Positions 2,047-35,028 of a stretch of 35,028 nucleotides of DNA are shown piece after piece. The translations under genes were made by a program, and so were the position numbers. A model generated the notes under the pieces. That model saw only the letters and a program-made list of their open reading frames with translations. It was not told the DNA's origin and ran no database searches. Numbering within the stretch: position 1 is the first letter of the stretch; the number at the start of each line of letters is the position of its first letter. The DNA comes from an uncultured Pseudomonadota bacterium (GTDB lineage Bacteria > Pseudomonadota > Gammaproteobacteria > Steroidobacterales > Steroidobacteraceae), in contig CAIRLC010000033.1 in NCBI GenBank assembly GCA_903879335.1, positions 1 through 35,028 on the forward strand, read 5' to 3'.

Positions 2047-3702
2047 ATGAGAACACCTCCGGGCGTAAGTCCATCGGATTACGCTAAGGCACTCACCGAA
2101 TTCCAGAACATTGTTGGGAAAGAGTGGGTTTTCACGTCCGATGAAGACCTCGATCTCTACCGTGATGCGTTCTCCCCGCTCATGAACGAGCCGGAAGAAA
2201 AGATCGCCTCGGGTGCCATTGCCCCGACCACCACGGAACAAGTGCAGGAAATTGTCCGAATCGCCAATCGGTACAAAATCCCGTTGTATACGATCTCGAC
2301 GGGCAAGAACCTCGGCTACGGCGGCTCCGCACCGGTGTATTCCGGGAGTGTTGTGCTTGACCTCAAGCGCATGAATCAGATCATCGAGGTGAATGAGGCG
2401 AACGCCTACTGTGTCGTCGAACCCGGAGTGAGCTATTTCGACCTATACCATTACATTCAGGAAAAGAAGCTCAAGGTATGGATCGATTGCCCGGATCCTG
2501 GTTGGGGCAGTGTCGTCGGCAATGCGATGGACCGCGGCGGTGGTTATACCCAAGCGAATTACCGCAATCATTTCGACTCTCACTGCGGCATGGAGGTTGT
2601 GCTGCCGAACGGTGAAGTGATGCGCACGGGCATGGGTGCCATCCCCAACGCCGAAACGTGGCAGCAATACAAAAGCGGCGTCGGACCTTGGATCGACGGC
2701 ATTTTTTCCCAGTCCAATTACGGCATCGTCACCAAGATGGGCTTTTGGCTGATGCCCGAGCCTGAGGCCTACCTACGCGGCCACATCAGCTGCATGAACT
2801 TTGAAGATTTGGGCCCGATGGTCGAGACGTTGAATTACCTTGAGAACGCTCGAATCACCGCAGGCTTCCCGGATCTGGGCTCGCCGCTATTGGGGTACGG
2901 TCCGATCGGCCAAGTCCAGCTCTTCTTTGAAAGTGGCACGCACATGGCGCTGCCACCGGAACACATGAAACTGCTGGCCACCGTCAAGGATGGACGATCC
3001 CCCGAACTCGAAGCCTACGGCAAGCAAAACGACATTCCCTATTGGCAGTTCTGGCTGAGTTTTCACGGCCCCATGGAAGTCATCGAGGCGCAGTGGCAGG
3101 CGGCCGTGCGTCACTTTGCCAAGATCAAGGGCTCACGCGCCAAAATCGTCGACAAGACTCATCTGCCGATCAATCCGGCGGATGCCGAGAAATTCCACGA
3201 GCCGGAATTGGGCATCCCATCCTTACGCGCCTTTTCGATTGGCGCGCGCAGCCCTTTCAATCCAACACCATCTAAAGGCCACATGTGGTTCTCGCCGATC
3301 ATTCCACGAACCGGCGAGGCGATCATCAAGGCCAACAAGATATTCAGTGCGGCCGCTCGCGAGCTCGACATGCCACTGTTTAGAACATTTACGCTGCCCG
3401 CCTGCTTTTGGGAGCGCTCGTTCATCTTTATCCTGGCAACACCCGTTACGACGGATCCGGCGACGAATAAGAAATATCGCGAGGGCTTCAAGAAGTTGAT
3501 TGCCATCGGTGGCGAACAAGGCTGGGGCGAGTATCGAACGGCACCGTTATTCCAAGAGTCCGTGATGAACGTCTACTCGTTCAATAATCATGTACTGCAC
3601 CGGTTCCATGAAACCTTGAAAGACGCGATCGACCCGAACGGAATCCTGTCGGCGGGCCGATACAACATTTGGCCGAAGAACCTGCGGGGGAAGCGCGGAT
3701 GA
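2047..3702 (+). CDS. p-Cresol methylhydroxylase-type flavoprotein (VAO/PCMH family)
   Basis: A 551-residue FAD oxidoreductase of the vanillyl-alcohol oxidase/4-cresol dehydrogenase family. These enzymes take a hydride from the carbon para to a phenol OH, giving a quinone methide that adds water to yield the benzylic alcohol. Seen: the FAD loop STGKNLGYGGSAP (84-96), VVLDLKRMN, the PDPGWGSVVGNAMDRGGGY segment (149-167), and DPNGILSAGRYN near the end. By eye, Tyr91 and the Tyr496-Arg497 pair match the phenolate-binding Tyr/Tyr/Arg set of PCMH, which argues for a 4-hydroxyphenyl substrate. ATG 2047 follows AGGGG. The gene overlaps the next one, a cytochrome c, by ATGA, as expected for a flavocytochrome. 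Candidate substrates are 4-alkylguaiacols, 4-alkylphenols, cresol, creosol or eugenol; the sequence does not tell which. Confidence 0.9.
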   Translation: MRTPPGVSPSDYAKALTEFQNIVGKEWVFTSDEDLDLYRDAFSPLMNEPEEKIASGAIAPTTTEQVQEIVRIANRYKIPLYTISTGKNLGYGGSAPVYSGSVVLDLKRMNQIIEVNEANAYCVVEPGVSYFDLYHYIQEKKLKVWIDCPDPGWGSVVGNAMDRGGGYTQANYRNHFDSHCGMEVVLPNGEVMRTGMGAIPNAETWQQYKSGVGPWIDGIFSQSNYGIVTKMGFWLMPEPEAYLRGHISCMNFEDLGPMVETLNYLENARITAGFPDLGSPLLGYGPIGQVQLFFESGTHMALPPEHMKLLATVKDGRSPELEAYGKQNDIPYWQFWLSFHGPMEVIEAQWQAAVRHFAKIKGSRAKIVDKTHLPINPADAEKFHEPELGIPSLRAFSIGARSPFNPTPSKGHMWFSPIIPRTGEAIIKANKIFSAAARELDMPLFRTFTLPACFWERSFIFILATPVTTDPATNKKYREGFKKLIAIGGEQGWGEYRTAPLFQESVMNVYSFNNHVLHRFHETLKDAIDPNGILSAGRYNIWPKNLRGKRG

Positions 3703-11979: not shown

Positions 11980-13986
11980 TCAACTGCCGAAGCGCGGATA
12001 GTCGGTCTGTCGTGCCGCATAATCGATGAAGTAATCGAGAGCTTTGACGTTCGCCATGGCCGATCGATTCGCCGCTTTATCCGGGGCTACGCCCATCAGG
12101 ATGCGCCGCACCGGCACTTCCATCTTTTTACCGGTCAGGGTGTATGGGATGCTCGGTACTTCGTAAATCTTGTCCGGGATGTGCCGAGGCGAGTAATCGG
12201 TGCGCATCTGCGTGCGGATGCGCTCGATCAGGTCGGCATCGAGCACCCGCCCCTCGCGCAATTTCACGAAGAGCGGCATGAAGAAGAGCCCACCGGGCAA
12301 GTCCAAGTTCACGATCAGTGAGTCCTCAATATCCTGCACATTCAGCAGCGATCGATAAACTTCCGCGGTGCCGATCCGGACGCCGTGACGATTCAGCGTT
12401 GCATCGGACCGGCCCAGTACGAAGCATCCTCCGCGCTGATTGATGCGGAAGAAATCGCCGTGGCGCCAGACACCCGGATACTGATCAAAATAGGAGTCCC
12501 GATAGCGTCGACCGTCCGGATCGTTCCAAAAGGCCACCGGCATTGAGGGCATCGGTTGCGTGATCACCAACTCACCGACCTCGTCGACACGAGGTTGGCC
12601 GTTTTCATCGAAGGCGTTGGCCGATACGCCCAAGAGTCGGGTCTGAATTTCACCGGCGTAGACCGGCAAGGTCACAAGACCACCAACGATGCCGCTGCAG
12701 ACGTCGGTGCCGCCACTGCCGGAGTGCCCGAACACATCCGCTTTGACGTTCTGATAGACCCACTGCAGGCATTCAGCGGTCACCGGCGAACCAGCCAGCA
12801 TGACCGTATCAAGCGCGGATAAATCAAATCGGTCTTTGGGCACGATGCCTGCTTTCTGCAGGATGCCGACATAGGTGGGGCTTGCGCCGAAGAGACTGGC
12901 CTTGCTGTCTTCCACCATCCGCCACAGCACATCCGGACCCGGATATGCGGGGTTGCCGTCGTACAAGACCGGCACAACGTCCACCAGGAGCGCGCTCGCC
13001 AGGAAATTCCACATCATCCAGCCGGTCGTGGTGAAGAAGAACATCCGCTGCCGGGCGTGCATGTCGTGATGCAGTAAGAAACTCTTCATCTGCTCCAGAA
13101 TCATCCCACCGTGACCATGCACTATCGGCTTCGGCAAGCCCGTCGTGCCGGAGGAAAAGAGGATCCACAGCGGGTGATTGAACGGCACCTGCTCGAACAC
13201 AAAATCCTCGCGCGCCACGGGCGCCCCGGCAATCGCGTCTTCCCAGTATTCCGTCCGGGCAAAGGGAACCGCCGTCTCCTCGGGACGCAGGTGCCGCATA
13301 TAAATCGCATGCTCGAGGGTCGGCAATGAACTGACGATCGTGGCCAGTTCCGGACGCCGGTCGAAGGCCTTGCCGCCGTAGTGGTATCCATCCACACAGA
13401 ACAGCACCTTGGGCGCCAATTGCGAGAAACGGTCGACCACACCTTGGACGCCAAAGTCCGGGCCGCAACTCGCCCACACCGCGCCAATGCTGGTGGTGGC
13501 AAACATGGCGATCATCGCATCCGGCGTATTCGGCACATAAGCGACAACCCGGTCGCCTGGCTTCACGCCGAGGGCGCGCAACCGCGTCGCCAGCACGCGC
13601 ACCTGCGCCCCGAGCTCGCTCCAGGACAAGGCGCGTAAGGGGTGCTGCTCACTCAGATAGAGCAGCGCGTCCTCACCGGGTCGTTCGTGGCGCAAGGCCT
13701 GCTCGGCATAATTGAGACGCGCTCCTGGAAACCAGACCGCCCCGGGCATGGACCGATCGGCGAGTACCCCCTCGTACGGAGCCGACGATTGGACGCCGAG
13801 GAACTCCCAGGCGGCGCCCCAAAAGCCCTCCAGATCCGTTACTGACCACTGCCAGAGCGCCGCATAGTCCGGGAAATGGTGTCCTCGCTGCGCCAACCAG
13901 GCCAAAAATCGGGTGATATGGGCCCGCCGCACCCGCTCGGCGCCCGGCGTCCAGAGGAGGTCTCCTTCACGTACAGAACTGGTCAT
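11980..13986 (-). CDS. Acetoacetyl-CoA synthetase-like acid:CoA ligase
   Basis: A 668-residue ANL-superfamily ligase of the acetoacetate-CoA ligase type, which activates a 3-oxo acid with ATP and CoA. Seen: the ATP loop LFSSGTTGLPKPIVH, the TTTGWMMWN segment typical of acetyl/acetoacetyl-CoA synthetases, the hinge motif WRHGDFFRIN with GRSDATLNRHGVRIG, and the catalytic Lys region TGKKMEVPVRR. ATG 13986 follows AGGAAGAG. Benzoylacetate-CoA ligase of acetophenone catabolism belongs to this same group, so an aroylacetate is a possible substrate here. The biotin-dependent carboxylase genes at the end of the window would supply such a beta-keto acid (inference). It is divergent from a LysR regulator and shares its operator region. 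Ordinary acetoacetate use is the main alternative. Confidence 0.9.
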   Translation of the reverse strand: MTSSVREGDLLWTPGAERVRRAHITRFLAWLAQRGHHFPDYAALWQWSVTDLEGFWGAAWEFLGVQSSAPYEGVLADRSMPGAVWFPGARLNYAEQALRHERPGEDALLYLSEQHPLRALSWSELGAQVRVLATRLRALGVKPGDRVVAYVPNTPDAMIAMFATTSIGAVWASCGPDFGVQGVVDRFSQLAPKVLFCVDGYHYGGKAFDRRPELATIVSSLPTLEHAIYMRHLRPEETAVPFARTEYWEDAIAGAPVAREDFVFEQVPFNHPLWILFSSGTTGLPKPIVHGHGGMILEQMKSFLLHHDMHARQRMFFFTTTGWMMWNFLASALLVDVVPVLYDGNPAYPGPDVLWRMVEDSKASLFGASPTYVGILQKAGIVPKDRFDLSALDTVMLAGSPVTAECLQWVYQNVKADVFGHSGSGGTDVCSGIVGGLVTLPVYAGEIQTRLLGVSANAFDENGQPRVDEVGELVITQPMPSMPVAFWNDPDGRRYRDSYFDQYPGVWRHGDFFRINQRGGCFVLGRSDATLNRHGVRIGTAEVYRSLLNVQDIEDSLIVNLDLPGGLFFMPLFVKLREGRVLDADLIERIRTQMRTDYSPRHIPDKIYEVPSIPYTLTGKKMEVPVRRILMGVAPDKAANRSAMANVKALDYFIDYAARQTDYPRFGS

Positions 13987-15318: not shown

Positions 15319-16728
<1,410 letters not shown>

Positions 16729-17407: not shown

Positions 17408-18394
17408 ATGACTCAACAGACCCTCGAACACTGGCAGCAGATGTACCGCTCGCTGTGGCGCATCCGCATCTTCGAAAGTCAGGTGCAGCGCTTGGCTGCC
17501 GCCGGCGAAGTGCCGGGCTTTCCGCACCTGTCCACTGGCCAAGAAGCGGTTGCCGTCGGGGTGTGCGCACACCTCAATCCGAGCGACGTGCTGTATACCA
17601 GCCATCGCGGCCATGGTCACATCCTCGCAAAAGGCAGCGACATTGAGGCGACGATGGCTGAAATCATCGGCCGCGATACGGGCTTATGCCGCGGCCGCGG
17701 CGGCTCGATGCACCTCGTGGATGCTGCGAACGGTGTGCTCGGCGCGACCGGCGTTGTGGCCGGCAATTTAGCGCTCGCAGCGGGCGCCGCGTGGGCCGCC
17801 CAAGCACAAGGCAAGTCTGACATCAGCGTCGTCTTTTTTGGCGATGGGGCGACGGGCGCCGGTGTATTCCACGAGACCTTAAATCTCGCTGCCCTTTGGA
17901 AGCTGCCGATACTCTTCGTCTGTGAAAACAACGGCTATGCCGAGTTCACCAGCCGCGAAGAACACTCCAACGTGAACCACGTGAGCGCCTTCGCGGCTCC
18001 CTATCACATCCCAACTAAGACGATTGACGGCAATGATCTGCGCGTCGTGCACGCCGAAGCCGGTGCCGCGATCGCCGGCATCCGCGCCGGTCAAGGGCCT
18101 TATCTCCTCGAATGCATGACCTTCCGCATGGCCGGTCATTATGTCGGCGACGCACAGCAGTACCGATCTAAAGAAGAGATGGCGGCGATGCTGGAAAAAT
18201 GCCCGATCGAGCGACTGAAGCGCCACTTGCTTGAGTCAGGCATAGACGCGGCCGAGTTGGACGCGATTCAAAACGACGCCACGCAGGAGGTCCTCGCGGC
18301 CTCCGACCGCGCCCGCGCAGCGCCGCGCCCGGACCCGGCATCGGTAATGGACGACGTCTACACCTCCCCTGCACTCCACGCAATCACAGGCTGA
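17408..18394 (+). CDS. Acetoin dehydrogenase-type E1 alpha subunit (set A)
   Basis: A 328-residue thiamine-diphosphate E1 alpha chain of the acetoin/branched-chain/pyruvate dehydrogenase family. Seen: HRGHGHILAKG, CRGRGGSMHLVD (94-105), and the ThDP/Mg motif from GDG (145-147) to NN (174-175) with ATGAGVFHETLNLAALWKLP between. The GRGGSMH segment and size are closest to acetoin dehydrogenase AcoA as I know it. E1 takes an acyl group from a 2-oxo acid or ketol and loads it on the lipoyl arm of E2. The beta chain starts 6 bases downstream and an E2 gene follows, so this is a complete E1-E2 set in the operon of the O-demethylase. The substrate is unknown; see the findings. Confidence 0.9.
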   Translation: MTQQTLEHWQQMYRSLWRIRIFESQVQRLAAAGEVPGFPHLSTGQEAVAVGVCAHLNPSDVLYTSHRGHGHILAKGSDIEATMAEIIGRDTGLCRGRGGSMHLVDAANGVLGATGVVAGNLALAAGAAWAAQAQGKSDISVVFFGDGATGAGVFHETLNLAALWKLPILFVCENNGYAEFTSREEHSNVNHVSAFAAPYHIPTKTIDGNDLRVVHAEAGAAIAGIRAGQGPYLLECMTFRMAGHYVGDAQQYRSKEEMAAMLEKCPIERLKRHLLESGIDAAELDAIQNDATQEVLAASDRARAAPRPDPASVMDDVYTSPALHAITG

Positions 18395-18400
18395 TCGCTC

Positions 18401-19378
18401 ATGGCCGTTCATACATTCATCAATATCCTGAAGCGGGCCCTCGATGAGGAAATGAGCCACGACAGCGCGGTTCACCTCTTAGGTGAAGACGTGGCGGCCG
18501 GTGGTGCCTTTGGTGTCACCCGTGGCCTCGTCGACAAGTACGGCGACCATCGGGTCAAGAACACGCCGATCAGCGAAGCGGCCATCACGGGCCTGGCCAC
18601 CGGCGCGGCCTTGGCGGGTTTAAAGCCTGTGCTGGAAATCATGTTCATTGATTTTGCGACGCTGGCGCTCGACTGCTTACTCAATCAGACCGCCAAGTAC
18701 CGCTACATGTCCGGCGGTCAAGTGACTCTGCCGCTGGTCGTGCGCACGCAAGCCGGCGCCGCGGGTGGTGCAGCTGCCCAGCACTCACAAAGCCTAGAAA
18801 CGTTTTTCATCCACATTCCAGGCCTCATCGTGGTCGCCCCGTCCTCGCCCGTCGAAGCCTATGGGCTCTTGAAGAGTGCGATCCGTTACGGCGAGCCGGT
18901 GCTTTTCATCGAGCACAAGCGGCTGTACACGATGAAAGAAGATCTGCCAGACGATTACACGCTGCCGACGATTGGCCAGGCGCGGGTGGCTCGTGAAGGC
19001 AGCGACATCACGATCATCGCCTACTCCGCCATGGTGCAAACGGCGCTGGAGGCTGCGCAGACTTTGGCCGATCAGGGCATCTCGGCTGAAGTGCTCGACC
19101 TACGCACATTGCTGCCCTTGGATATGGCGACGATCGCCCAATCGGTCAGCAAGACGCACCGCGTGCTCATCGCGCAGGAAGCCGTCTTGAATGGCGGGGT
19201 TGCGGCTGAGATTGCCGCACGCATCGGCAGCGAATTGTTTGATGAACTCGATGGACCGGTTGAGCGGGTGGGCTGCCCCTTTGCGCCGATCCCCTTCGCA
19301 CCAGAGCTCGAGCGAGCGCTGTTGCCCGGCAAGGATGACATCCTCCGCGCCGTCCACCGCATGGTTGGCCACGCTTAA
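18401..19378 (+). CDS. Acetoin dehydrogenase-type E1 beta subunit (set A)
   Basis: A 325-residue E1 beta chain (transketolase pyrimidine-binding and C-terminal domains). Seen: the ThDP-activating Glu in NTPISEAAITG, the substrate-side loop AAQHSQSLETFF with the usual His, and the C-terminal domain with VLDLRTLLPLD and RVLIAQEAVLNGGVAAEIA. It would form an alpha2beta2 heterotetramer with the product of the gene just upstream. The QHSQSLE loop is the canonical form for acetoin and pyruvate E1 beta, in contrast to set B. The gap to E1 alpha is 6 bases and to E2 24 bases, so all three are co-expressed. Confidence 0.9.
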   Translation: MAVHTFINILKRALDEEMSHDSAVHLLGEDVAAGGAFGVTRGLVDKYGDHRVKNTPISEAAITGLATGAALAGLKPVLEIMFIDFATLALDCLLNQTAKYRYMSGGQVTLPLVVRTQAGAAGGAAAQHSQSLETFFIHIPGLIVVAPSSPVEAYGLLKSAIRYGEPVLFIEHKRLYTMKEDLPDDYTLPTIGQARVAREGSDITIIAYSAMVQTALEAAQTLADQGISAEVLDLRTLLPLDMATIAQSVSKTHRVLIAQEAVLNGGVAAEIAARIGSELFDELDGPVERVGCPFAPIPFAPELERALLPGKDDILRAVHRMVGHA

Positions 19379-19402
19379 AGCCACCTCGAGGAGTGCTGTC
19401 CC

Positions 19403-20650
19403 ATGTCTCGCGTGCTGCAGGAAATTCCAAAAGTGGGCCTCGTCATGGAGGCCGTGAAGGTCGTCCGTTGGCTCAAGGCGCCCGGCGATATCGTGCGACT
19501 CGGCGATCCCCTTGTTGAGGTCGAAACAGAAAAATCGGTCATCGAGATTGAAGCCACCATCGCCGGCGTATTGGCTGAAGCCTTGCTGGCGGTCGACCAA
19601 GAAGCCAATGTCGGTGACCCTTTGGCGTGGATCGAGGTTGAAGGCACCAGCGCCGAGACGGCCGGTGTTCCAAGTGCACCCGCAGCAGAACCCGTGGCCG
19701 CACCGAGAGCCGTGACCACGTCAGCGCCAGTGGCGCCAGTAGCTCCAGTGGCGAGTGGAAGCGCGGAGCGCATTCCGGCCTCGCCCGCCGCGCGTCGTCT
19801 CGCCAGCGAAAGTGGGCTTGAATTGGCGTCGATCAAAGGCTCGGGTCCACGTGGACGGATTGAGCTCGACGACGTGCGCCGGGCGCAAAGCGCGACGTCA
19901 GCACCGGCCAAGGCCGCGGCGACGTCGATGCCCGTGCCACCGACCGTGCGCGGCGCAACGACCAGCCCGACGAGCGGATTAACCCCGATGCGCCGAGCGC
20001 TCGCTCGCGCCATGACCCTCAGCAACGCCGCGGTGCCGCAGTTCCCGGTCGAGCGGGACGTCGACTGGACTCGCGTGCAGGCCACCCGAGCGGAGCTCAA
20101 CGCTGCCCTGCCCACCGGTGCCGCGCGGGTGTCCGTGAATGATTTCTTACTGCACGCGATCGCGCACACCTTGATCGAGTTCCCGGCATTGAACGCTAGG
20201 TTTACGGGTTCTCTAGAGGCCGCAGACGCTCGACTCGAATCGGCCCACGGCGCTCACATCGGCCTCGTGCTCGCGGTCGATGGCGGGCTTGTGGTGCCGG
20301 TATTGCATGATGTCGAACAATTGAGCGTGACCGAGATCGCCGCCCGCCGCACGGCTTGTGTTGAACGCGGCCTGAACGGCGTCCTGAAGCGTGAAGAACT
20401 GGCCGGCGCCACGATCAGCCTCTCAAACCTCGGCAGCCGTGGTCCGGATCGATTCATCGGCATGATCAACCCACCCGAGTCGGCCATCCTAGCGGTGGGG
20501 CGTCAGCGCGATGTGGTCACGGTGGTCTCTGGACAGATGATTGCCATACGACCGATCTCTACACTCACGCTGACCGTGGATCATCGCGTCGCGGATGGAC
20601 GCTTAGCCGCCGACTTCCTCGCGCGCGTGGTCGAGCGACTCGAACAGTAA
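19403..20650 (+). CDS. Dihydrolipoamide acyltransferase E2
   Basis: A 415-residue E2 core protein. It has one lipoyl domain (about 1-80) with the lipoyl Lys44 in VETEKSVIEIEA, an Ala/Pro-rich linker (about 90-115), an E1/E3-binding domain (SPAARRLASESGLELASIKG and GSGPRGRIELDDV, about 120-155), another Ala/Pro-rich linker, and the CoA acyltransferase domain ending with the catalytic VDHRVADG (His394, Asp398). ATG 19403 has AGGAG 9 bases upstream. It completes the set A complex and should transfer the acyl group to CoA. A single E2 is present for two E1 pairs in the window, so it may serve both. No E3 (lipoamide dehydrogenase) gene is present; a housekeeping E3 would be needed. Confidence 0.92.
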   Translation: MSRVLQEIPKVGLVMEAVKVVRWLKAPGDIVRLGDPLVEVETEKSVIEIEATIAGVLAEALLAVDQEANVGDPLAWIEVEGTSAETAGVPSAPAAEPVAAPRAVTTSAPVAPVAPVASGSAERIPASPAARRLASESGLELASIKGSGPRGRIELDDVRRAQSATSAPAKAAATSMPVPPTVRGATTSPTSGLTPMRRALARAMTLSNAAVPQFPVERDVDWTRVQATRAELNAALPTGAARVSVNDFLLHAIAHTLIEFPALNARFTGSLEAADARLESAHGAHIGLVLAVDGGLVVPVLHDVEQLSVTEIAARRTACVERGLNGVLKREELAGATISLSNLGSRGPDRFIGMINPPESAILAVGRQRDVVTVVSGQMIAIRPISTLTLTVDHRVADGRLAADFLARVVERLEQ

Positions 20651-20671
20651 GCTCAGCAACTTGATCGGATC

Positions 20672-20710
20672 AAAAAAACGGGCCGGTCTTACGAGACCGG
20701 CCCGTTGCAT
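20672..20710 (-). terminator. Rho-independent terminator between convergent operons
   Basis: A perfect 12-bp stem, ACGGGCCGGTCT (20678-20689) and AGACCGGCCCGT (20694-20705), with a TACG loop. Seven A residues lie just before it on the plus strand, so on the minus strand the stem is followed by a T-run: a textbook terminator for the E1 set B operon. It may also stop plus-strand reading from the E2 gene. Confidence 0.92.
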
Positions 20711-20736
20711 TTAACGACCCGTCGGTCAACGCGCGA

Positions 20737-21705
20737 TTAGCCGCCGCTCTGCATCACCCGACGAACCGCGTCGACGATGCGCGCCTCATCCGGGATCACA
20801 TAAGCCTCTAAGGGCTCGCTGTACGGCACGGTGACGTCCCGTGCGTTGACCTGCAGGATCGGCGCTTTGAGGGAGGAGAAGCCGAACTCGGCGACGTCCG
20901 CCGCAATGATGCCGCCCACGGTCGCATGCCGCGGCGCCTGGTCCACCACCACCAAGCGTCCCGTCTTGGCAACCGACGTCAAAATGGTGTCGAGATCGAG
21001 TGGCGCCACCGTGCGCGGATCAATGACTTCGACCTCAATGCCTTCCGCTGCGAGCGTCGCCGCCGCACCCAAGGCGCGGTTCACCATCCAACCGGTTGCG
21101 ACGATCGTGACGTCACTTCCGGTGCGACGCACCGCGGCCACGCCGAAGGGCACGAGATGCTCGCCGTCGGGCACTTCACCGTGCTCAAGGGTCAAGAGGT
21201 AGTGGTGCATGAACACCACCGGATTGTCGTCGCGAATGGCTGTCGCCATGAGTCCCTTGGCATCCGCCGCGGTCGACGGTACAACCACTTTGAGTCCAGG
21301 CACACCCATGAAGAGGGCGGTGAGTGAACCCGTGTGCTGGCCGGCCCATCCGGCCGCAAAGCCGAAGCCGGCCTTCAACACCAAGGGCACCTTAACCTGG
21401 CCGCCGGTCATATAACGGAAGCGCGGCGCCTCATTGACGACCTGATCCATCGCGACGAGCATGAACTCAGCCATGTAGAGCTCAACGACCGGACGCAATC
21501 CGGCCATCGCCGCACCGATCGCGATACCGATCTCGGCAGTCTCGGAAATCGGCGTGACGCGCACACGGTCGTGGCCGTATTCCGCGACGAATTCATGGTT
21601 TTCTGTGGTGGCCAGGTTCTGGCCAAAGTAAAGCACGTTGGGATCACGCCGCATTTCCTGGTGAATGCCGGCGTCGATCGCAGCGATAAAAGGTAGTTGT
21701 GCCAT
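20737..21705 (-). CDS. E1 beta subunit, 2-oxo acid/acetoin dehydrogenase type (set B)
   Basis: A 322-residue E1 beta chain. Seen: the ThDP-activating Glu in VTPISETAEIG, and the C-terminal domain with VIDPRTVAPLD and RLVVVDQAPRHATVGG. The loop after the first domain reads GQHTGSLTALFMGVPG: the His is kept, but the following residues differ from the QHSQSLE loop of set A, which points to a different substrate. ATG 21705 has GGAG 7 bases upstream; the frame is open to 21777 but overlaps the alpha gene without a better site. It follows the set B alpha gene by 13 bases and ends at the strong terminator. It is not accompanied by its own E2 gene. Confidence 0.88.
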   Translation of the reverse strand: MAQLPFIAAIDAGIHQEMRRDPNVLYFGQNLATTENHEFVAEYGHDRVRVTPISETAEIGIAIGAAMAGLRPVVELYMAEFMLVAMDQVVNEAPRFRYMTGGQVKVPLVLKAGFGFAAGWAGQHTGSLTALFMGVPGLKVVVPSTAADAKGLMATAIRDDNPVVFMHHYLLTLEHGEVPDGEHLVPFGVAAVRRTGSDVTIVATGWMVNRALGAAATLAAEGIEVEVIDPRTVAPLDLDTILTSVAKTGRLVVVDQAPRHATVGGIIAADVAEFGFSSLKAPILQVNARDVTVPYSEPLEAYVIPDEARIVDAVRRVMQSGG

Positions 21706-21718
21706 GGATGACTCCGAC

Positions 21719-22747
21719 TTAGGCGTAAACGTTGTCGAGGGCGGACTCGAGGGCCGGGAATGGACTCGCGACGGCAAACTTCACCGCCACATCCATTTCT
21801 GCAGCGACCTGCGCGTTGAGGGCATCGGCCGCAGCGCCACTCAAAATTCCCGATTGCACGAGCTTGCCGCGGAAGCGCGGTACCGGATCACCGCGCAGCG
21901 CGGCCTCGTACTCTTCCCGCTTACCGAACACCGTGATCGCCTCATGCTCGGGATAGTGAAGCGGCACGCCCGGCGGGGCGATGATGTTGCCGTGCGCTGA
22001 AAGCCGGTAAACCTTCGACTCGATCAATGACGGACCCTCACCGGCACGCGCGCGCGCCACGGCATGACCCACGACTTCAGCAACGGCCAGTGGATCCGTG
22101 CCGTCCACCGTCACGCCCGGCATCACATAGGAGGTGGCCTTGATGGCGAGTGGCTGACCGGCGGCCGCGTTGGCGTCCTCTTGCTCGGAGGTGGTGACGA
22201 CGTTGTAGCCGTTGTTCTCCATGACGAAGATCACCGGCAACTTCCACAGCGAGGCAATGTTCAGCGTCTCGTGGAACGCACCTTGCTTCGAGGCTCCGTC
22301 GCCGAAGAAGCAGAATACAACCTCGCCCTTCTTCCGGATTTGCGCCGCCCACGCCGCACCGGCGGCGTGCGGGATGCCCGCACCCACGATGCCAGAGGTG
22401 CCGAGGAAACCGTTCGCAACGTCCGTCAAATGCATCGACCCGCCCAGACCTTTGCAGATCCCGTCGGCGCGACCCAAGATTTCCGCCATCATGGCCTTCG
22501 GATCGGTACCGAGCGCCAGTGGGTAACCGTGGCAGCGATAAGTCGCAAGCGCTGCGTCGCCCTTTTTGAAGTGACTCAACGCGCCGACGATCGACGCCTC
22601 AGCGCCGTCGGCCAAGTGGGTGTGACCGCGAATCACGCCCGGATATTCGGTAAAGGTGCGCTTCACGCGCTCCTCAAATTCCCGGATGCGCAGCATCTGG
22701 GTCAACATTTCAATCTGTTGTTCGGAACTCGGCGACTGCAAGCTCAT
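21719..22747 (-). CDS. E1 alpha subunit, 2-oxo acid/acetoin dehydrogenase type (set B)
   Basis: A 342-residue ThDP-dependent E1 alpha chain. Seen: HTHLADGAEASIVGAL, YRCHGYPLALG, CKGLGGSMHLTD (98-109), and the ThDP/Mg motif from GDG (149-151) to NN (178-179). Compared with set A it reads LGGSMH instead of RGGSMH, and CHGYPLALG instead of HRGHGHILAKG, so it is a clear paralogue and not a recent copy. ATG 22747 follows AAGGGGA at normal spacing. It belongs to the minus-strand operon with the GMC dehydrogenase upstream and E1 beta downstream. This suggests it acts on a product of that dehydrogenase, for example a ketol or diketone (inference). Confidence 0.88.
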   Translation of the reverse strand: MSLQSPSSEQQIEMLTQMLRIREFEERVKRTFTEYPGVIRGHTHLADGAEASIVGALSHFKKGDAALATYRCHGYPLALGTDPKAMMAEILGRADGICKGLGGSMHLTDVANGFLGTSGIVGAGIPHAAGAAWAAQIRKKGEVVFCFFGDGASKQGAFHETLNIASLWKLPVIFVMENNGYNVVTTSEQEDANAAAGQPLAIKATSYVMPGVTVDGTDPLAVAEVVGHAVARARAGEGPSLIESKVYRLSAHGNIIAPPGVPLHYPEHEAITVFGKREEYEAALRGDPVPRFRGKLVQSGILSGAAADALNAQVAAEMDVAVKFAVASPFPALESALDNVYA

Positions 22748-22876: not shown

Positions 22877-24445
22877 TCAGATCCGTCCCGCCGCCAGTTC
22901 TTTGCCGATGTGTTCGGCCTGGCGCAACGCCAAGGACACAATCGTCAACGTTGGATTGGCAGCGCCCGGTGTGGGCAATACACTGCCATCCGACAGGAAC
23001 AGATTCGGCACTTCATGTGCTCGGCCGTAGGGATTGGTCACGCCCGTTGCTGGATCGACGCTCATGCGCGCCGTGCCCATCTGATGCGTCGCCGTTGACC
23101 CCTCACTGACCACAATGCGCTTGGCACCGACCGCTTCATAGATACGACGCCCTTGCTGACGCGCGTGATCGCGCAACGCGATGTCGTTCGGGTGTGTGTC
23201 GCAGTGGATATGGGCCGAGGGCAAGCCAGAGGAATCCTTCACGGTCGTCGACAAGGTGATTCGGTTATCGGGCCGCGACATGTCCTCACCATTAATGAGG
23301 ATGCCGGACACATTGCGATAGTTGTCAATGATCGACGCGTAATCCCGCCCCCAGCCATACGGCAAGCCCGCCAAGGGCCACGAGGGCAAATCGAGCGCCA
23401 CCAATTCCAAGTGATAGCCACCGACGAAGCCACGACGCGGGTCGTGCACGTTCTCATCTTCCACGACACCCGCAAGCGTCGTGCCACGCCAAGCGTACAC
23501 AGGCTTATCAAAAATGCCCCAGACGAAGCTGGTCAAGTGGTGGCAGTAATTACGGCCCACTTGATCCGAACCGTTGGCCAGACCATTCGGGAACCGGCCC
23601 GAGGCAGACAGGAGCAATAAGCGCGCGCTCTCAATAGAGTTACCGGCGAGGCACACGAGGCGCGCCTTTTGGCGCTGCTCATGGCCGTTGGCATCGCGAT
23701 AAACCACGGCGTTCGCGCGACCATCCGCACCATGCTCGATGCGCGTCGCAAAACAGCTGGTCCGTAGATCCAGACGTCCAGTCGCTTCCGCGCGCGGGAT
23801 CTCCGTGTACAGCGTGCTCCACTTGGCCGCGGTCTTACAGCCCTGCACACAGAAGCCCTGCTGGATGCAGCCACCACGGTCATCGCGAGCCTTGCTGTTG
23901 ATGGCCAAATAGTTGGTGTGCACGCGCTTGTAGCCCACCTTCCGGGCGCCGGCGTACAACACCTTAAAATTATTGTTGGCCGGCATACCCGGCAAGCCGT
24001 GACGACGGGTCACGCCCATGCGCCGCTCGGCGGCAAAATACCACCGCTTCAGCTCGGCGTATTCCATCGGCCAGTCGACCAAGGAGGTTCCCGCGACCTC
24101 ACCATAGGTCGAGCGAGCGCGAATCTCATACTCTTGCAGGCGTGGCGTCGCCGCCGTCCAATGCACGGTCGTGCCGCCCACCGTCCGACAATGCCAAGCG
24201 GGCATGTTGGGGGAGGTATGCACCGCATCCCATGTGCCGCTCTGACTGCGTGGCTCAAGCCACGTCAATTGTCCGAAAGCCTCACCAATGTTCTGCGAGA
24301 ACGAGGCTGGCGACTCGCGCCGACCTGCCTCCAACAAGACGACTTTTAGGCCGCGTCGTGTCAGTTCATGCGCCATGGTGCCGCCACCAGCGCCCGAGCC
24401 GATAATGACCGCAACGCTGTCGTCATCTAATGCATAGCGTGGCAT
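22877..24445 (-). CDS. GMC-family FAD dehydrogenase, large subunit (gluconate/fructose dehydrogenase-like)
   Basis: A 522-residue GMC oxidoreductase. Seen: the FAD-binding GSGAGGGTMAHELTRRG (17-33), the WHCRTVGGTTVHW segment, the Cys cluster CIQQGFCVQGCK that in membrane-type gluconate and glucose dehydrogenases holds a 3Fe-4S cluster, and the C-terminal TATHQMGTARM and NPTLTIVSLALR motifs. It has no signal peptide; family members are carried to the periplasm by their Tat-signal small subunit, which is encoded 26 bases upstream. ATG 24445 follows GAGGA. It should oxidise an alcohol and pass electrons to a cytochrome. GMC enzymes act on lignin-type side-chain alcohols such as hydroxypropiovanillone (HpvZ, from memory), so a similar substrate is possible. 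Confidence 0.9.
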   Translation of the reverse strand: MPRYALDDDSVAVIIGSGAGGGTMAHELTRRGLKVVLLEAGRRESPASFSQNIGEAFGQLTWLEPRSQSGTWDAVHTSPNMPAWHCRTVGGTTVHWTAATPRLQEYEIRARSTYGEVAGTSLVDWPMEYAELKRWYFAAERRMGVTRRHGLPGMPANNNFKVLYAGARKVGYKRVHTNYLAINSKARDDRGGCIQQGFCVQGCKTAAKWSTLYTEIPRAEATGRLDLRTSCFATRIEHGADGRANAVVYRDANGHEQRQKARLVCLAGNSIESARLLLLSASGRFPNGLANGSDQVGRNYCHHLTSFVWGIFDKPVYAWRGTTLAGVVEDENVHDPRRGFVGGYHLELVALDLPSWPLAGLPYGWGRDYASIIDNYRNVSGILINGEDMSRPDNRITLSTTVKDSSGLPSAHIHCDTHPNDIALRDHARQQGRRIYEAVGAKRIVVSEGSTATHQMGTARMSVDPATGVTNPYGRAHEVPNLFLSDGSVLPTPGAANPTLTIVSLALRQAEHIGKELAAGRI

Positions 24446-30700: not shown

Positions 30701-31555
30701 TTAGCCGGCGTCGAGGACCTCGAACACTTCGTCTAGATTCCGCAGAACCCGGTGCGCCCGACGCACGCCGGTTTGAGACTCCCAGTCCTCGACGGTGGTG
30801 AAACCCGTCGTCACCCCGAGCATGGTCGCCTTGCCTCGACCGGCCATGATGGCCTCAACCAAAGGATCGTCGCCCACCACCACCACGTTGCGCGGCAATA
30901 CGCCCAGGCGTTTCGCCACCAGGCGCAGCGCGTGTAATGACGGCTTACCTGTGATCGTGACCGGCGCCTTGGTCAGGCGTCGAATGGCCGCCAACATCGC
31001 AAAGGTATAGCCAATCGTACGTCCTTGCTTGGTGGCAAAGAACGGTACATCCGATGCACCATAGAGCCGGGCTCCGGCCCAAATCGCATGGCAGGCGGAA
31101 TCGATGTCTTTCATTCCACAATCCGGATGCCATCCCACGTACACCGCATCCACGGCGGTGTCATCGGGTTCCCCGGTGTGCACGGTCTCGATCCCGACGT
31201 CACGCAAAGCCTGACCCACGCCGGGACTGCCGAGCACCAAGACACGGCGGATCCCCTGGCGCTGCATGTGATCGGCGGTCACGCTCGACGGCGTGAGCAT
31301 CTGGTGATCCTCGACCGGTAAGCCGGTGCGGCGCAATTTGGCCGCCTGCTCGGCCGGTGGATAGGCACTGCCGTTAGTGAGAATCACGAACGGAATACCG
31401 CGGGCTTTGAGTTTGGTCAGCACCTCGACGGCACCCGGCAACAACTCATAACCGCCGAGTGATCGATCACTGAGCAGTAAGGTGCCATCCAGATCAAACA
31501 TCACGCCGCGTGGCTGAGCCGACGGCGACGCCGGCTTATGGGATCCGGATGTCAC
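30701..31555 (-). CDS. HAD-IIA (NagD-like) phosphatase
   Basis: A 284-residue HAD phosphatase with all four motifs: FDLDGTLLLSD (nucleophile and acid Asp), VILTNGSAYP, the Lys in ITGKPSLHAL, and VVGDDPLVEAI. The class IIA cap (about 90-190) is as in NagD and 4-nitrophenylphosphatase-type enzymes, some of which cleave aryl phosphates. It starts with GTG, overlapping the stop of the carboxyltransferase gene by GTGA, so it is tightly coupled to the carboxylase. This suggests it removes a phosphate from the carboxylation product, as in the acetovanillone route where a phospho-aryl ketone is carboxylated (inference). A general housekeeping phosphatase is the alternative. Confidence 0.88.
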   Translation of the reverse strand: MTSGSHKPASPSAQPRGVMFDLDGTLLLSDRSLGGYELLPGAVEVLTKLKARGIPFVILTNGSAYPPAEQAAKLRRTGLPVEDHQMLTPSSVTADHMQRQGIRRVLVLGSPGVGQALRDVGIETVHTGEPDDTAVDAVYVGWHPDCGMKDIDSACHAIWAGARLYGASDVPFFATKQGRTIGYTFAMLAAIRRLTKAPVTITGKPSLHALRLVAKRLGVLPRNVVVVGDDPLVEAIMAGRGKATMLGVTTGFTTVEDWESQTGVRRAHRVLRNLDEVFEVLDAG

Positions 31556-33045
31556 GATTTCACCCCTGACGCGCCCGCGCGTCCTTGACCTGTGAGTTCT
31601 AATTTAAAGCCAGCTTTTTCGACCGCCACCCGCGACACGTCACGCCGAGCGGTCAGACCACGAATCAAATCCATCACCGGACGTGAGTTCGGATCGTAAT
31701 GACGCACGGCCGATCCTGCGCCCTGCATCGCGTCTACAAGCCCACTCGGCATCGTCGCCCGTAACAGAAACTCTTCATCGGACAATGTCGTGCCCAGTCG
31801 GCGCCGCAACTCCGTGACCGAGGCCATGTCAGGTTCCGCGCGGAGCTCTTTGGTTCGCGGCAAAGCCTCGATGCGATCGAGTAATTCAGGATCAATCGGT
31901 GAGGTCGGACGACCGAATCGACCGATGGCGAAGCGAATCACTTCGTCAGGAATCACCGAGTAACGTTTGCCGGTAGTGATATTCATGAAGGCCTGCGTCA
32001 TCACCATCTGGGCGAACGGCGTCATCACAATCGGCCAGCCGAGCTCGCGCCGCACCTGACTGATTTCCTTAATCACCGCCGGCTCTAAGTGCGACATGCG
32101 GGCTTCGGCCAATTGCCGGCGCATCGTGCCGATCATGCCACCCGGCAGTTGATGATTGAGGTAATCGGCATCAAATCCTTGCGGCGCGCCAACGGCGAGT
32201 CCTTCCGCAGACGCGATCTGCGAAAAAAAGCGCCCTGCGTCCTTGAGTGCCTCAAGGTCCAGATCAACGGTATGACCCAAGCTCAAAAGGTTAGCGACAA
32301 TGCGCTCCGCCGGTGGATTTGAAATCCCGTCCCCGAGACCACCGGCCGCGCATTGAAGTGCGGCGATGCCGAGGTCAGCGGCCTCAAGATAGGTGGATTC
32401 TGCCAAACCAATCGTGCAGTGCGAGTGCAGTTCCAAGGGCTTGCCGCCCATTTGTGCTCGGATGGCAGGAATCAACGTGCCGGCACGCTTCGGCGACAAC
32501 AGGCCACCCGGGTCTTTGATATACAAGGCATCGACATCGGGGCTCAGCGCCAGCCGTCGCGCACATTCGGCGTACATGGCATCGTCATGGATAGGACTGA
32601 CGGTAAACACGAGGGCTGCAATGACCGTCTCACCGCCAGCGGCCTTCACCATGCGCGCACACGCCAGATTGGCATCGACATCGTTCATCGGATCGGCGAG
32701 GCAAAAGCGGCGAATGCCATTGCGCACGAGCGTCGCAAAGACAAGGCTCATGAATTCAGGGCTTGCGGTCTCCCACGAGATAAATCGAAAGCCCGTCGAC
32801 ATGAACTGCAATGGGGTTCGCGGCATGGCGGCTGCCGTCAAACGGATGCGTTCCCAGGGATCTTCCTGCTTGAATCGAACGGCCACGCCCATGTGCGTCG
32901 AGGTCGTGAAGTCGATCGCTTTAAAACCGACGCGGTCCAAAATGGGTGCGACGGTCAACGTTTTTGCGGTGTCGACGCCCGTTGCGCCCCATAAACACTG
33001 ATTGCCATCCCGCAGCGATGTATCCACCAATTGTATGTTAGCCAT
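31552..33045 (-). CDS. Carboxyltransferase subunit, pyruvate carboxylase/oxaloacetate decarboxylase-like
   Basis: A 497-residue protein of the HMGL-like/PycB carboxyltransferase family. Seen: DTSLRDGNQ (8-16) with the metal-binding Asp13 and Gln16, VRFKQEDPWER (56-66) with the substrate-binding-type Arg, Lys177 in YIKDPGG (the carboxylated Lys in pyruvate carboxylase), His207-x-His209 in LHSHCTIG, and PGGMIGTMRRQL (301-312). By eye the catalytic Thr of pyruvate carboxylase is replaced by Ala293, which argues for another acceptor than pyruvate. ATG 33045 has GGAG 10 bases upstream and overlaps the biotin carboxylase gene by 8 bases. No biotinyl domain is fused; the carrier is a separate gene. 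The acceptor may be an aryl ketone or its phosphate (inference). Confidence 0.88.
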   Translation of the reverse strand: MANIQLVDTSLRDGNQCLWGATGVDTAKTLTVAPILDRVGFKAIDFTTSTHMGVAVRFKQEDPWERIRLTAAAMPRTPLQFMSTGFRFISWETASPEFMSLVFATLVRNGIRRFCLADPMNDVDANLACARMVKAAGGETVIAALVFTVSPIHDDAMYAECARRLALSPDVDALYIKDPGGLLSPKRAGTLIPAIRAQMGGKPLELHSHCTIGLAESTYLEAADLGIAALQCAAGGLGDGISNPPAERIVANLLSLGHTVDLDLEALKDAGRFFSQIASAEGLAVGAPQGFDADYLNHQLPGGMIGTMRRQLAEARMSHLEPAVIKEISQVRRELGWPIVMTPFAQMVMTQAFMNITTGKRYSVIPDEVIRFAIGRFGRPTSPIDPELLDRIEALPRTKELRAEPDMASVTELRRRLGTTLSDEEFLLRATMPSGLVDAMQGAGSAVRHYDPNSRPVMDLIRGLTARRDVSRVAVEKAGFKLELTGQGRAGASGVKS

Positions 33046-34414
33046 GCTGGCCACTCTCCTTAATGGCGGGTTCGCGCGCTAAAAACCGAGCGAGAAAACC
33101 GGTATCCACACCGCCGGCGATGAATTCAGCGTCGGTCAAGACGTCCACATGAAACCCAATATTGGTCGAGACCCCAGACAGCACCGTCTCAAGTAAGGCA
33201 TGCCGTAATCGCATCACTACGTCGCTGCGAGTCGGGGCATGCACGATCACCTTGGCGAGCAAGGAGTCATAAAACGGCGGCACGCGCGCACCGGCATCGA
33301 TATGGGTATCCACACGTATCGAGGGCGCAGACGGCCAAGACACCGACGACACCACACCTGGCGAGGGCTGGAAATCTCGGTTCGGATCTTCGGCGTTGAC
33401 GCGGCATTCCATGGCGCAACCGTCGAAGGTCACAGACTCTTGGGTCAATCGAAGCCCTTCACCCGAGGCAATCGCGATTTGCTCGGCCACCAAATCAATG
33501 CCAGTCACCGCCTCCGTGATCGGATGCTCCACCTGGATGCGCGCATTCATCTCAAGAAAATAGAACTCATCTCGGTCCACATCGACCAGAAATTCCACCG
33601 TACCGGCACCGCGATATGATAAGCGCTCGGCAAAACGGACCGCAGCAGCATGCAACCGGGTACGGAAGTCCGCTGAGAGTCCCGGCGCCGGTGTTTCTTC
33701 GATCAATTTTTGATAGCGACGCTGCACGGAGCAATCACGTTCGCCCAGATGAATGACGCGCCCAGCGCCGTCACCGAGCACTTGGACCTCGACATGTCGG
33801 CCCCGCTCCACAAATCGTTCGAGATAGACGCGCGAGTCACCAAACGCAGCCCCCGCCTCGGCGCTGGCCATGCTCAAGGCCTCTTCCAACTCGTCGATCC
33901 GGTCGACGCGTTTCATGCCACGCCCGCCGCCGCCACCCACCGCCTTGACGAGAAACGGCGGTTGGATGCGTTGGGCGAGCGCGAGCGCCTCGTCGAGGCT
34001 CGCGACCGGCCCACCCGGAACGACCGGCACGTCAGCGGCCTCCGCCGCCGCGCGCGCCTTTAACTTGTCACCGACGGCATCGATTTGAGCAGCAGTCGGT
34101 CCAATGAAAATAATCCCGTGCTCTTCGCAGCGTTCTGCCAAGGCCATGCGCTCGGATAAGAACCCGTAGCCCGGATGAATCGCATCGGCACCCACGGCTT
34201 GTGCGGCGTGCACAATCGTATCGACCCGCAGATAACTGTCCCCTGGGCGCGCCGGTCCGATGCAGACGGCACGATCCGCCATGCGGGCCGGCAGAGATTC
34301 CCGATCAGCCGTCGATACGGCCAACACCGTCTCGATGCCTAAGGCTTGGCAGGTACGAATGATCCGAACCGCAATCTCGCCACGGTTGGCGATCAGCACA
34401 CGCCGAATGGACAC
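33038..34414 (-). CDS. Biotin carboxylase subunit (AccC-type)
   Basis: A 458-residue ATP-grasp enzyme that carboxylates biotin with bicarbonate and ATP. Seen: IANRGEIAVRIIR (8-20), IHPGYGFLSE, the glycine-rich lid VKAVGGGGGRGMK, HLGERDCSVQRRYQKLIEE and the catalytic EMNARIQVEHPITE. Length is normal for AccC. It starts with GTG 2 bases after the carrier-protein stop and lacks its own ribosome site, so translation is coupled. It is part of a dedicated multi-subunit carboxylase with the carrier and the PycB-like subunit. No AccA or AccD genes are near, so acetyl-CoA carboxylase function is unlikely. Confidence 0.93.
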   Translation of the reverse strand: MSIRRVLIANRGEIAVRIIRTCQALGIETVLAVSTADRESLPARMADRAVCIGPARPGDSYLRVDTIVHAAQAVGADAIHPGYGFLSERMALAERCEEHGIIFIGPTAAQIDAVGDKLKARAAAEAADVPVVPGGPVASLDEALALAQRIQPPFLVKAVGGGGGRGMKRVDRIDELEEALSMASAEAGAAFGDSRVYLERFVERGRHVEVQVLGDGAGRVIHLGERDCSVQRRYQKLIEETPAPGLSADFRTRLHAAAVRFAERLSYRGAGTVEFLVDVDRDEFYFLEMNARIQVEHPITEAVTGIDLVAEQIAIASGEGLRLTQESVTFDGCAMECRVNAEDPNRDFQPSPGVVSSVSWPSAPSIRVDTHIDAGARVPPFYDSLLAKVIVHAPTRSDVVMRLRHALLETVLSGVSTNIGFHVDVLTDAEFIAGGVDTGFLARFLAREPAIKESGQHG

Positions 34415-34416
34415 GG

Positions 34417-34890
34417 CTACGGTGCCGGCTTGACGAACATCAACGGTTCGTCAAATTCAACTAACTGACTGTCCACAGCCGTGATCGCTGCAACGGTACC
34501 GCTCACACCTGCACGGACCGGATTCATCAGCTTCATCACTTCGATAATGCCGATCACCGTCTCAGCATCCACCGTGTCGCCGACCGCCACGTAAGGCGGC
34601 GCACCCGGCTTCGGTGCTCGATAGAACGTGCCGAGCAGCGGCGCACGAACCGCTTCAGCGCCGTCGACCGCCACCGGCTGGGAAGGCTTCTTGTCGATCG
34701 CGCGCGGCGCCGGTACTGAAGCTGCCGCCGCAACCAGCGGTGTGGCAGGCTGGGCGGTGTCCATCGGTGCCTGCAGACCCCCGCGGCGCAAGCTCAGCTT
34801 GACACCGTCCATCTCTAAATCCAGCGCATCGAAGGCCGAACTCTCAACCAGTCGCATGATTTCAGCGACATCGTTCGCAGTCAGTTTCAC
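34417..34890 (-). CDS. Biotin carboxyl carrier protein (AccB-type)
   Basis: A 157-residue carrier. The N-terminus (VAEIMRLVESSAFDALDLEM) is the usual AccB head, then an Ala/Pro-rich linker (about 40-70), then the biotinyl domain with APLLGTFYRAPKPG and the biotinylated Lys120 in IIEVMKLMNPV (Val in place of the more usual Ala of EAMK). GTG 34890 is the start: GGAGG lies 6 bases upstream and the protein then begins KLTANDVAEI; the frame continues to 34974 but overlaps the preceding gene. It overlaps the stop of the upstream kinase-like gene by GTGA. Confidence 0.9.
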   Translation of the reverse strand: MKLTANDVAEIMRLVESSAFDALDLEMDGVKLSLRRGGLQAPMDTAQPATPLVAAAASVPAPRAIDKKPSQPVAVDGAEAVRAPLLGTFYRAPKPGAPPYVAVGDTVDAETVIGIIEVMKLMNPVRAGVSGTVAAITAVDSQLVEFDEPLMFVKPAP

Positions 34891-35028
34891 CGGCGTCCTC
34901 CGAAGATAGCCATGACGTGAGCCAAAGGGTCGGCGGCCGCGCGGGCCACGGGCGCTGCATCCTGTGAGGACCAAACGGTCTCAGGGCGGCTTTGCAGGAG
35001 CAGCACCGTGCCCGTATGCCGGTCTACA
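34887..35028 (-). CDS. C-terminal end of a PEP synthase/PPDK_N-type kinase, partial
   Basis: Only the last 46 codons lie in the window; the gene starts beyond 35028 and has no start codon here. The visible residues begin VDRHTGTVLLLQSRPETVWS and end with HVMAIFGGRR. LLLQSRPETVWS is the hallmark end of the PEP/pyruvate-binding ATP-grasp domain (PPDK_N), which reads LQARPET or LQSRPET in PEP synthase and in phenylphosphate-synthase-type phenol kinases. Its stop overlaps the GTG start of the biotin carrier gene (GTGA). A phenol or aryl-ketone kinase feeding a carboxylase is the expected role by analogy with the Hpe/Acv acetovanillone systems. The protein seems to end soon after the domain, so a second subunit with the phosphotransfer domain may lie upstream. 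Confidence 0.7.
   Translation of the reverse strand, partial: VDRHTGTVLLLQSRPETVWSSQDAAPVARAAADPLAHVMAIFGGRR

Follow-up and report, generated by a model that had tools for sequence, protein, structure and literature searches.

Which pathway does an operon cut off by the end of a contig encode, and is it a new one? The contig (CAIRLC010000033.1 of the assembly GCA_903879335.1, from an uncultured member of the Steroidobacteraceae) is 35,028 nucleotides long. This whole stretch, called here the window, is the entire contig C33 of a 3.14-Mb genome in 46 contigs. At positions 30701-35028 its minus strand carries the end of a kinase gene and genes for a biotin carrier, a biotin carboxylase (BC), a carboxyltransferase (CT) and a HAD phosphatase. 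The initial annotation compared this set with the Hpe and Acv systems of aryl ketone catabolism and proposed that it might form a new or variant aryl-ketone carboxylase. The genes tell us their presence, order and domains, the closeness of the operon to that of Sphingobium lignivorans SYK-6, and the key residues of the encoded proteins; homology suggests the reactions, the substrate and the joint work of distant genes. It is very likely that the operon is of the Hpe/Acv type, that is, provides for phosphorylation, carboxylation and dephosphorylation of a lignin-derived aryl methyl ketone such as acetovanillone.

The kinase gene (34887..35028) is truncated by the contig end. Its frame, upstream of the carrier gene, is open for 46 residues up to the window edge and encodes the C-terminal 46 codons of a small, HpeI-like ATP-grasp (PPDK_N) component. 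Then follow, on the same minus strand, the genes for an HpeC-like biotin carboxyl carrier protein (34417..34890, 157 amino acids, motif EVMKLM, GTG start at 34890), BC (33038..34414, 458 amino acids), a PycB-type CT (31552..33045, with a likely ATG start at 33045 in an open reading frame (ORF) that extends up to GTG 33054), and an HpeD-like HAD phosphatase of the NagD-like kind (30701..31555, 284 amino acids). Direct reading of the bases yields TCAC, that is, a GTGA overlap on the minus strand, both at the carrier/kinase junction (34887-34890) and at the HAD/CT junction (31552-31555). The BC stop codon TAA at 33040-33038 and the CT start at 33045 produce an 8-base overlap (33038-33045), and BC is separated from the carrier gene by two bases (34415-34416). 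All these junctions coincide to the base with those of the initial annotation.

The assignments come from the ORF list and Pfam, and for the carrier and BC also from NCBIfam. The carrier matches the biotinyl domain and passes the cut-off of TIGR00531 (117.5 bits against 115.2); BC matches the biotin carboxylase family and passes PRK08591 (609.2 against 597). The CT has the HMGL-like and PYC_OADA domains. The phosphatase, a HAD hydrolase in Pfam, scores 86.4 bits with PF13344 (cut-off 27), and its PDB matches are NagD-type phosphatases. The kinase piece of 46 residues taken alone has no Pfam hit. By these matches, the operon is predicted to encode a three-subunit biotin carboxylase with a single PycB-type CT, contiguous with the kinase and with a NagD-like HAD phosphatase similar to HpeD.

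The missing part of the kinase is probably found on contig C14 of the same genome. C14 opens with 483 bases (C14:1-483) that align to window positions 34546-35028 with 40 differences (91.7% identity), 26 of them at third codon positions; the longest exact run is 67 bases. On the strand matching the window operon, Pfam identifies a small kinase component of 350 amino acids with PPDK_N as its only domain (C14:342-1394) and a large one, an ORF of 657 amino acids that has the PEP-utilizers mobile domain at its C-terminal end (C14:1402-3375; PEP, phosphoenolpyruvate). The end of the former is 98% identical to the truncated window gene, which bears out the PPDK_N-type kinase end proposed initially. 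In the PDB the small component matches 9GOJ best (238 bits), a structure deposited as HpeI. The large component has the swivel motif VSDIGGSMSH, identical in SYK-6. It fits the motif T/SxxGGxxxH published in a paper treating the kinase of the Hpe pathway, where the HpeH swivel is described with Cys before His (PMC12167813); here Met is two positions before His, and the kinase of Rhodococcus sp. JS3073 has IMCH, with Cys preceding His. Neither of the C14 proteins has a Pfam hit to the PEP-binding C-terminal domain. With this domain undetected and the swivel motif present, the kinase appears to be of the two-component phenol-kinase type. Extension past 35028 through C14 thus points to a two-protein kinase upstream, and not to the true PEP synthase or unrelated gene for which the initial annotation had left room.

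These data bear on a rival explanation, a PEP synthase gene followed by an operon for a common pyruvate carboxylase or oxaloacetate decarboxylase. While the domain families (PPDK_N, HMGL-like with PYC_OADA) are shared with these enzymes and in the PDB the CT matches PycB and oxaloacetate decarboxylase best, the kinase consists of two separate proteins, the CT stays below the cut-offs of every listed NCBIfam PycB/OadA model (best 297.8 of 402), and the genome has both a separate 801-amino-acid PEP synthase-like frame on C21 and a separate 1197-amino-acid pyruvate carboxylase-like frame on C2, which matches the CT at 26%. As the kinase is not a fused PPDK_N-swivel-PEP-binding protein and the CT does not score at the PycB/OadA level, we rejected this explanation, which we regard as hardly credible.

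Gene order supports the assignment to the Hpe/Acv type. The small kinase was searched for in 60 genomes: its own, 36 others of the same family and 23 of the same order. Matches at 1e-20 or better were found in 58 genomes, nearly all of them PEP synthase-like. Close matches (E-values from 1e-113 to 1e-164, 55-70% identity) are seen in eight of the 36 others from the same family, whereas the 23 genomes of the same order have none, their best match being at 8e-59 (40%). All eight same-family loci viewed have the large kinase, small kinase, carrier and BC genes in this order on a single contig. For a broader sample, an alignment of 11 CT sequences was used to scan named genomes, and the best 80 of 578 confirmed loci were retained by CT likeness; the counts of loci below refer to these 80. 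Six of them (L038, L040, L050, L064, L071, L072) are records of the genomes G014, G032, G027, G035, G018 and G021. The order H-I-C-(A)-B-D, where H and I are the large and small kinase genes, C the carrier, A the BC, B the CT and D the phosphatase, is seen with or without BC in 51 of the 53 loci with enough contig room, the remaining two lacking only the HAD hit. Since so many loci share the order, the arrangement is more than a chance one.

The CT provides the second line of evidence. In a quick tree of 91 rows, with SH-aLRT (Shimodaira-Hasegawa-like approximate likelihood ratio test) as the only support measure and with five rows, the window CT copy and four duplicates, dropped beforehand, one clade of 81 rows (SH-aLRT 100) unites the window and SYK-6 with 79 other loci, apart from pyruvate carboxylase. 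Several outer branches are long and were flagged by the program. In this tree the CT groups with a characterised member. The smallest starred group containing the window CT also includes L038 and L050 (SH-aLRT 97). The window CT is 75% identical to that of L020 (genome G014), 72% to SYK-6, 56% to the Pseudomonas putida plasmid protein, 55% to R. leguminosarum, 54% to S. yanoikuyae, 50% to N. humi and 44% to Rhodococcus JS3073. The identity to the pyruvate carboxylase of its own genome is 24.5%, which argues against pyruvate as the substrate, a case considered in the initial annotation.

Residue counts were made on 94 aligned CTs, five being the window copy or duplicates. Lys occupies the carboxyl-lysine position in 92 of them, the two zinc His positions are conserved in 94 and 93, Gln19 is present in all and Arg60 in 93. 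At the first zinc-ligand position 74 sequences have Glu and 20, among them the window CT, have Asp. The roles given to these residues (carboxyl-lysine, zinc ligands, Gln19, Arg60) are those known from pyruvate carboxylase. After PGG the pyruvate carboxylase of this genome has QYTN, whereas the CT family has Gly at the position of this Thr (89 of 94) and Thr at the next one (93 of 94), a further argument against an ordinary pyruvate carboxylase.

The Acv pathway of SYK-6 for acetovanillone and acetosyringone is published. The SYK-6 operon at our locus L068, taken to be acvABCDEF, consists of these six genes, likewise arranged as H-I-C-A-B-D, and the products are 75, 65, 52, 71, 72 and 55% identical, respectively, to those of the window and C14. 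The SYK-6 genome contains one BC at 71% identity to that of the window, the other three matches being at 47-49%. According to PMC13101465, the SYK-6 operon has six genes, which encode the kinase, carboxylase and phosphatase. Hence the comparison with Hpe and Acv is supported by the gene order and by identities of 52-75% to the SYK-6 operon. The suggestion of a new or variant carboxylase fared differently: because SYK-6 and other viewed loci have the same single PycB-type CT, the window operon appears to be a new member of the known Hpe/Acv kind, a close relative of the SYK-6 set, and not a new system.

The HpeHICBADEF set of Rhodococcus rhodochrous GD02 comprises the same kinase, carboxylase, NagD-like phosphatase, AcsA2-like CoA ligase and hydrolase. 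Its stand-in here, Rhodococcus sp. JS3073, is more distant than SYK-6 (37-59% identity by subunit). GD02 carries the ligase and hydrolase genes inside the operon, whereas in our genome the ligase gene is elsewhere in the window (11980-13986) and the hydrolase gene is on contig C11 (C11:128317-129180). SYK-6 encodes an HpeF-like protein as well (55% identity to that of R. leguminosarum), but has no close relative of the window CoA ligase (best 28%). The CoA-ligase ending of the window pathway would thus be of the GD02 type.

In GD02, HpeHI phosphorylates acetovanillone and 4-hydroxyacetophenone, HpeCBA carboxylates these ketones, using one ATP, only in their phosphorylated form, HpeD dephosphorylates the carboxylated product, and HpeE and HpeF are proposed for the last two steps (PMC9618137). 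By analogy, the two-protein dikinase, with the swivel histidine in the large subunit and the ATP-grasp in the small one, would spend ATP on phosphorylating an aryl methyl ketone at its 4-hydroxyl; the most likely ketones are acetovanillone and/or acetosyringone or 4-hydroxyacetophenone. BC would carboxylate the carrier-bound biotin, spending one ATP, and the PycB-type CT would transfer the carboxyl group to the methyl carbon of the ketone. Removal of the phosphate by the HAD phosphatase would leave a 4-hydroxyaryl beta-keto acid, to be cleaved by the acetoacetate-CoA-ligase-like enzyme and the HpeF-like hydrolase into an aryl acid and acetyl-CoA; LigM and then a LigAB-type dioxygenase may act on the aryl acid. 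The order of phosphorylation, carboxylation and dephosphorylation proposed initially is well supported by the gene order, identities, swivel motif and absence of a hit to the PEP-binding domain. As the kinase pair is also homologous to CreHI and phenylphosphate synthase (PMC9618137), one could think of a phenol or cresol route of the PpsAB or CreHI type, with phosphorylation serving another step. However, the operon combines the kinase with the biotin-dependent set, and we consider such a route very improbable.

Several observations weigh against the assignment to the Hpe/Acv type. The HAD protein (55%) and the carrier (52%) are only moderately similar to those of SYK-6, and the HAD protein misses the NCBIfam HAD-IIA cut-off (89.7 against 100.15). 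The identification of L068 with acvABCDEF relies on descriptions in other papers and on the single-BC result for SYK-6. The kinase genes are on a different contig, with only the end of the small component within the window. The CoA ligase gene is 17 kb away from the operon, and the HpeF-like gene is on a third contig. The 80 best loci are a sample biased towards intact operons; the figure cited by PMC13101465 for clustering of the kinase genes with those of the carboxylase is only 52 out of 836 cases. Finally, since the contig overlap is only 91.7% identical, C14 may belong to a close strain, the bin being a strain mixture, or to an unassembled second copy; this identity across contig ends is rather low for strains of one species. 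No second operon copy was found in the genome: a CT and a BC of this kind occur once each, and either kinase component has a single full gene.

Similar genes are found in other known systems. XccABC of Aromatoleum aromaticum EbN1 is a three-subunit biotin carboxylase tied to 4-hydroxyacetophenone and clustered with hpeHI homologues (PMC9618137). It belongs to an anaerobic route and is likened to the window operon by description only. The published mass of HpeB, called carboxyltransferase, is 49.3 kDa, and that of HpeA, called biotin carboxylase, is 57.4 kDa (PMC9618137). In L032, on the Rhodococcus JS3073 plasmid, BC is about 49.5 kDa and CT about 57.5 kDa by guessed start codons; because these masses match HpeB and HpeA, respectively, the two labels in that paper may be swapped. 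In the MarK route of Novosphingobium aromaticivorans the kinase is a single-component one, and the pathway is called very similar (PMC13101465).

Plasmids of P. putida YC-AE1, S. yanoikuyae and N. humi contain clusters with similar carrier, BC, CT (50-56%) and HAD genes, where a Tm-1-like (UPF0261) protein occupies the place of the two-component kinase. Our guess is that this protein is MarK-like. It was seen at the kinase position in P. putida YC-AE1 and S. yanoikuyae YC-JY1 (L029 and L030), where the genes were viewed; related carboxylase genes are also present on a plasmid of Sphingomonas bisphenolicum (NZ_AP018819). The former two strains are bisphenol A degraders, and the latter is so by its name. 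The Caballeronia NK8 plasmid (L036) has a CT-carrier-BC cluster (CT identity 37%). Genes for acetoacetate decarboxylase and carbonic anhydrase are close to this cluster, while the annotation of the viewed stretch shows no kinase gene; possibly, it encodes another ketone carboxylase.

Many of the related operons have no BC gene of their own. BC is present between the carrier and CT in 42 of the 80 loci and absent from 33, five being unjudged for want of a carrier match. The loci without BC are L057, L060, L067, L070, L075, L077, L078, L080, L083-L085, L088, L091, L093, L095-L098, L101-L103, L105-L114, L116 and L117. In these loci the carrier and CT matches are 2-240 bases apart; four loci were inspected by eye. 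Altererythrobacter CC-YST694 is one of the bacteria with a BC-less operon. On the CT tree the presence or absence of BC changes at least six times, gains and losses being indistinguishable. In two such genomes searched whole, the best BC is at 51% (L080) and 50% (L117) identity to that of the window, the level of the second-best BC of SYK-6. Among the literature listed, with the MarK paper outside the comparison, no treatment of recurrent BC absence was found, and we do not claim that it is unreported. With these operons it can easily be tested if a catabolic carboxylase can work with the housekeeping AccC.

Growth on such ketones is reported for only four strains or their mutants, and the kinase and carboxylase genes are said to be rarely clustered (PMC13101465). 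In the same paper, Rhodococcus RHA1 served as the expression host for the genes of GD02, A. macra and SYK-6. With the loci described here, the clustered form is seen in a family of the Gammaproteobacteria and in the Acidobacteriota, which helps the choice of new enzymes for lignin conversion.

Genes for the later steps are scattered. The acetoacetate-CoA ligase-like enzyme (11980..13986, minus strand), a probable counterpart of HpeE, passes the corresponding NCBIfam cut-off; in G014, of the same genus, a 62% relative is encoded directly 3' of the HAD gene. The HpeF-like amidohydrolase on C11 is 56% identical to that of R. leguminosarum. A LigM-type vanillate/3-O-methylgallate O-demethylase (15328..16728, plus strand; 752.7 bits, cut-off 580) is a probable later enzyme. 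Relatives at no less than 150 bits and 50% identity were counted near the operon, the loci reaching at most 10 kb on each side and many of them less: there are eight loci with the CoA ligase, eight with the HpeF-like protein and 12 with LigM. C14 also carries genes for LigA and LigB subunits. Because LigM, the CoA ligase, the HpeF-like protein and LigA/LigB are all encoded, vanillate formation and ring cleavage in the source organism seem plausible.

A VAO/PCMH-family flavoprotein (2047..3702, plus strand; PCMH, p-cresol methylhydroxylase) could tentatively supply aryl ketones from 4-alkylphenols or guaiacols. Its best PDB match is 9h40 (756 bits), by name a p-cresol methylhydroxylase. The initial annotation placed the operon beside this enzyme and LigM; the contig does carry both, at distances of 27 kb and 14 kb, respectively, so that the wording was generous. 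An alternative is that the same core acts on another phenolic methyl ketone, 4-hydroxyacetophenone or one derived from 4-ethylphenol or 4-ethylguaiacol via the PCMH-type enzyme, similarly to the Xcc route that Aromatoleum uses anaerobically. This option, unlikely though worth keeping in mind, is favored by the flavoprotein itself, by the flavoprotein and cytochrome c genes adjoining the kinase gene in G035 (L025), and by the about tenfold preference of GD02 HpeCBA for phospho-4-hydroxyacetophenone over phospho-acetovanillone (PMC9618137), whereas methoxylated substrates are indicated by the closeness to the acetovanillone/acetosyringone operon of SYK-6 and by the presence of LigM on the same contig, and the link to PCMH is seen in one of the 80 loci, the record of G035 itself. 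Because of this single occurrence we keep the PCMH link only as tentative.

The G035 genes (L025:5845-7742), for a flavoprotein at 37% identity to that of the window and for a cytochrome c, are divergent from the kinase gene, which suggests that the pair supplies ketones from 4-alkylphenols. In the window, two sets of 2-oxoacid/acetoin-dehydrogenase-like E1 alpha and beta genes and one E2 gene are situated at 17408-22747; their relatives (59-82%) are found together with LigM near the operon in one locus, L039. They might cleave aryl ketols or diketones. It is rather doubtful that the whole contig is one island for lignin monomers, with ketones made by a PCMH-type hydroxylase together with dehydrogenases and then passed to the Acv-type core and the Hpe-type CoA-ligase ending, converting alkylguaiacols via acetovanillone-type ketones to vanillate or syringate and acetyl-CoA. 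If true, this would be an aerobic funnel from alkylguaiacols to acetovanillone, undescribed in those parts of the literature that were examined.

Two further candidates were rejected. The GMC oxidoreductase (22877-24445), considered as HpvZ-like, has no match in the SYK-6 genome in a search that had no positive control, and no NCBIfam hit at 1e-20. The BKACE protein of this genome (C17) is only 31% identical to the 3-keto-5-aminohexanoate cleavage protein encoded beside the S. yanoikuyae cluster. On C11, the HpeF-like gene is situated among four glutathione transferase-type and two SDR genes (L118:5557-11632). The best PDB match of one of these transferase-type proteins is LigF (146 bits), and the cluster looks like one for beta-aryl ether cleavage.

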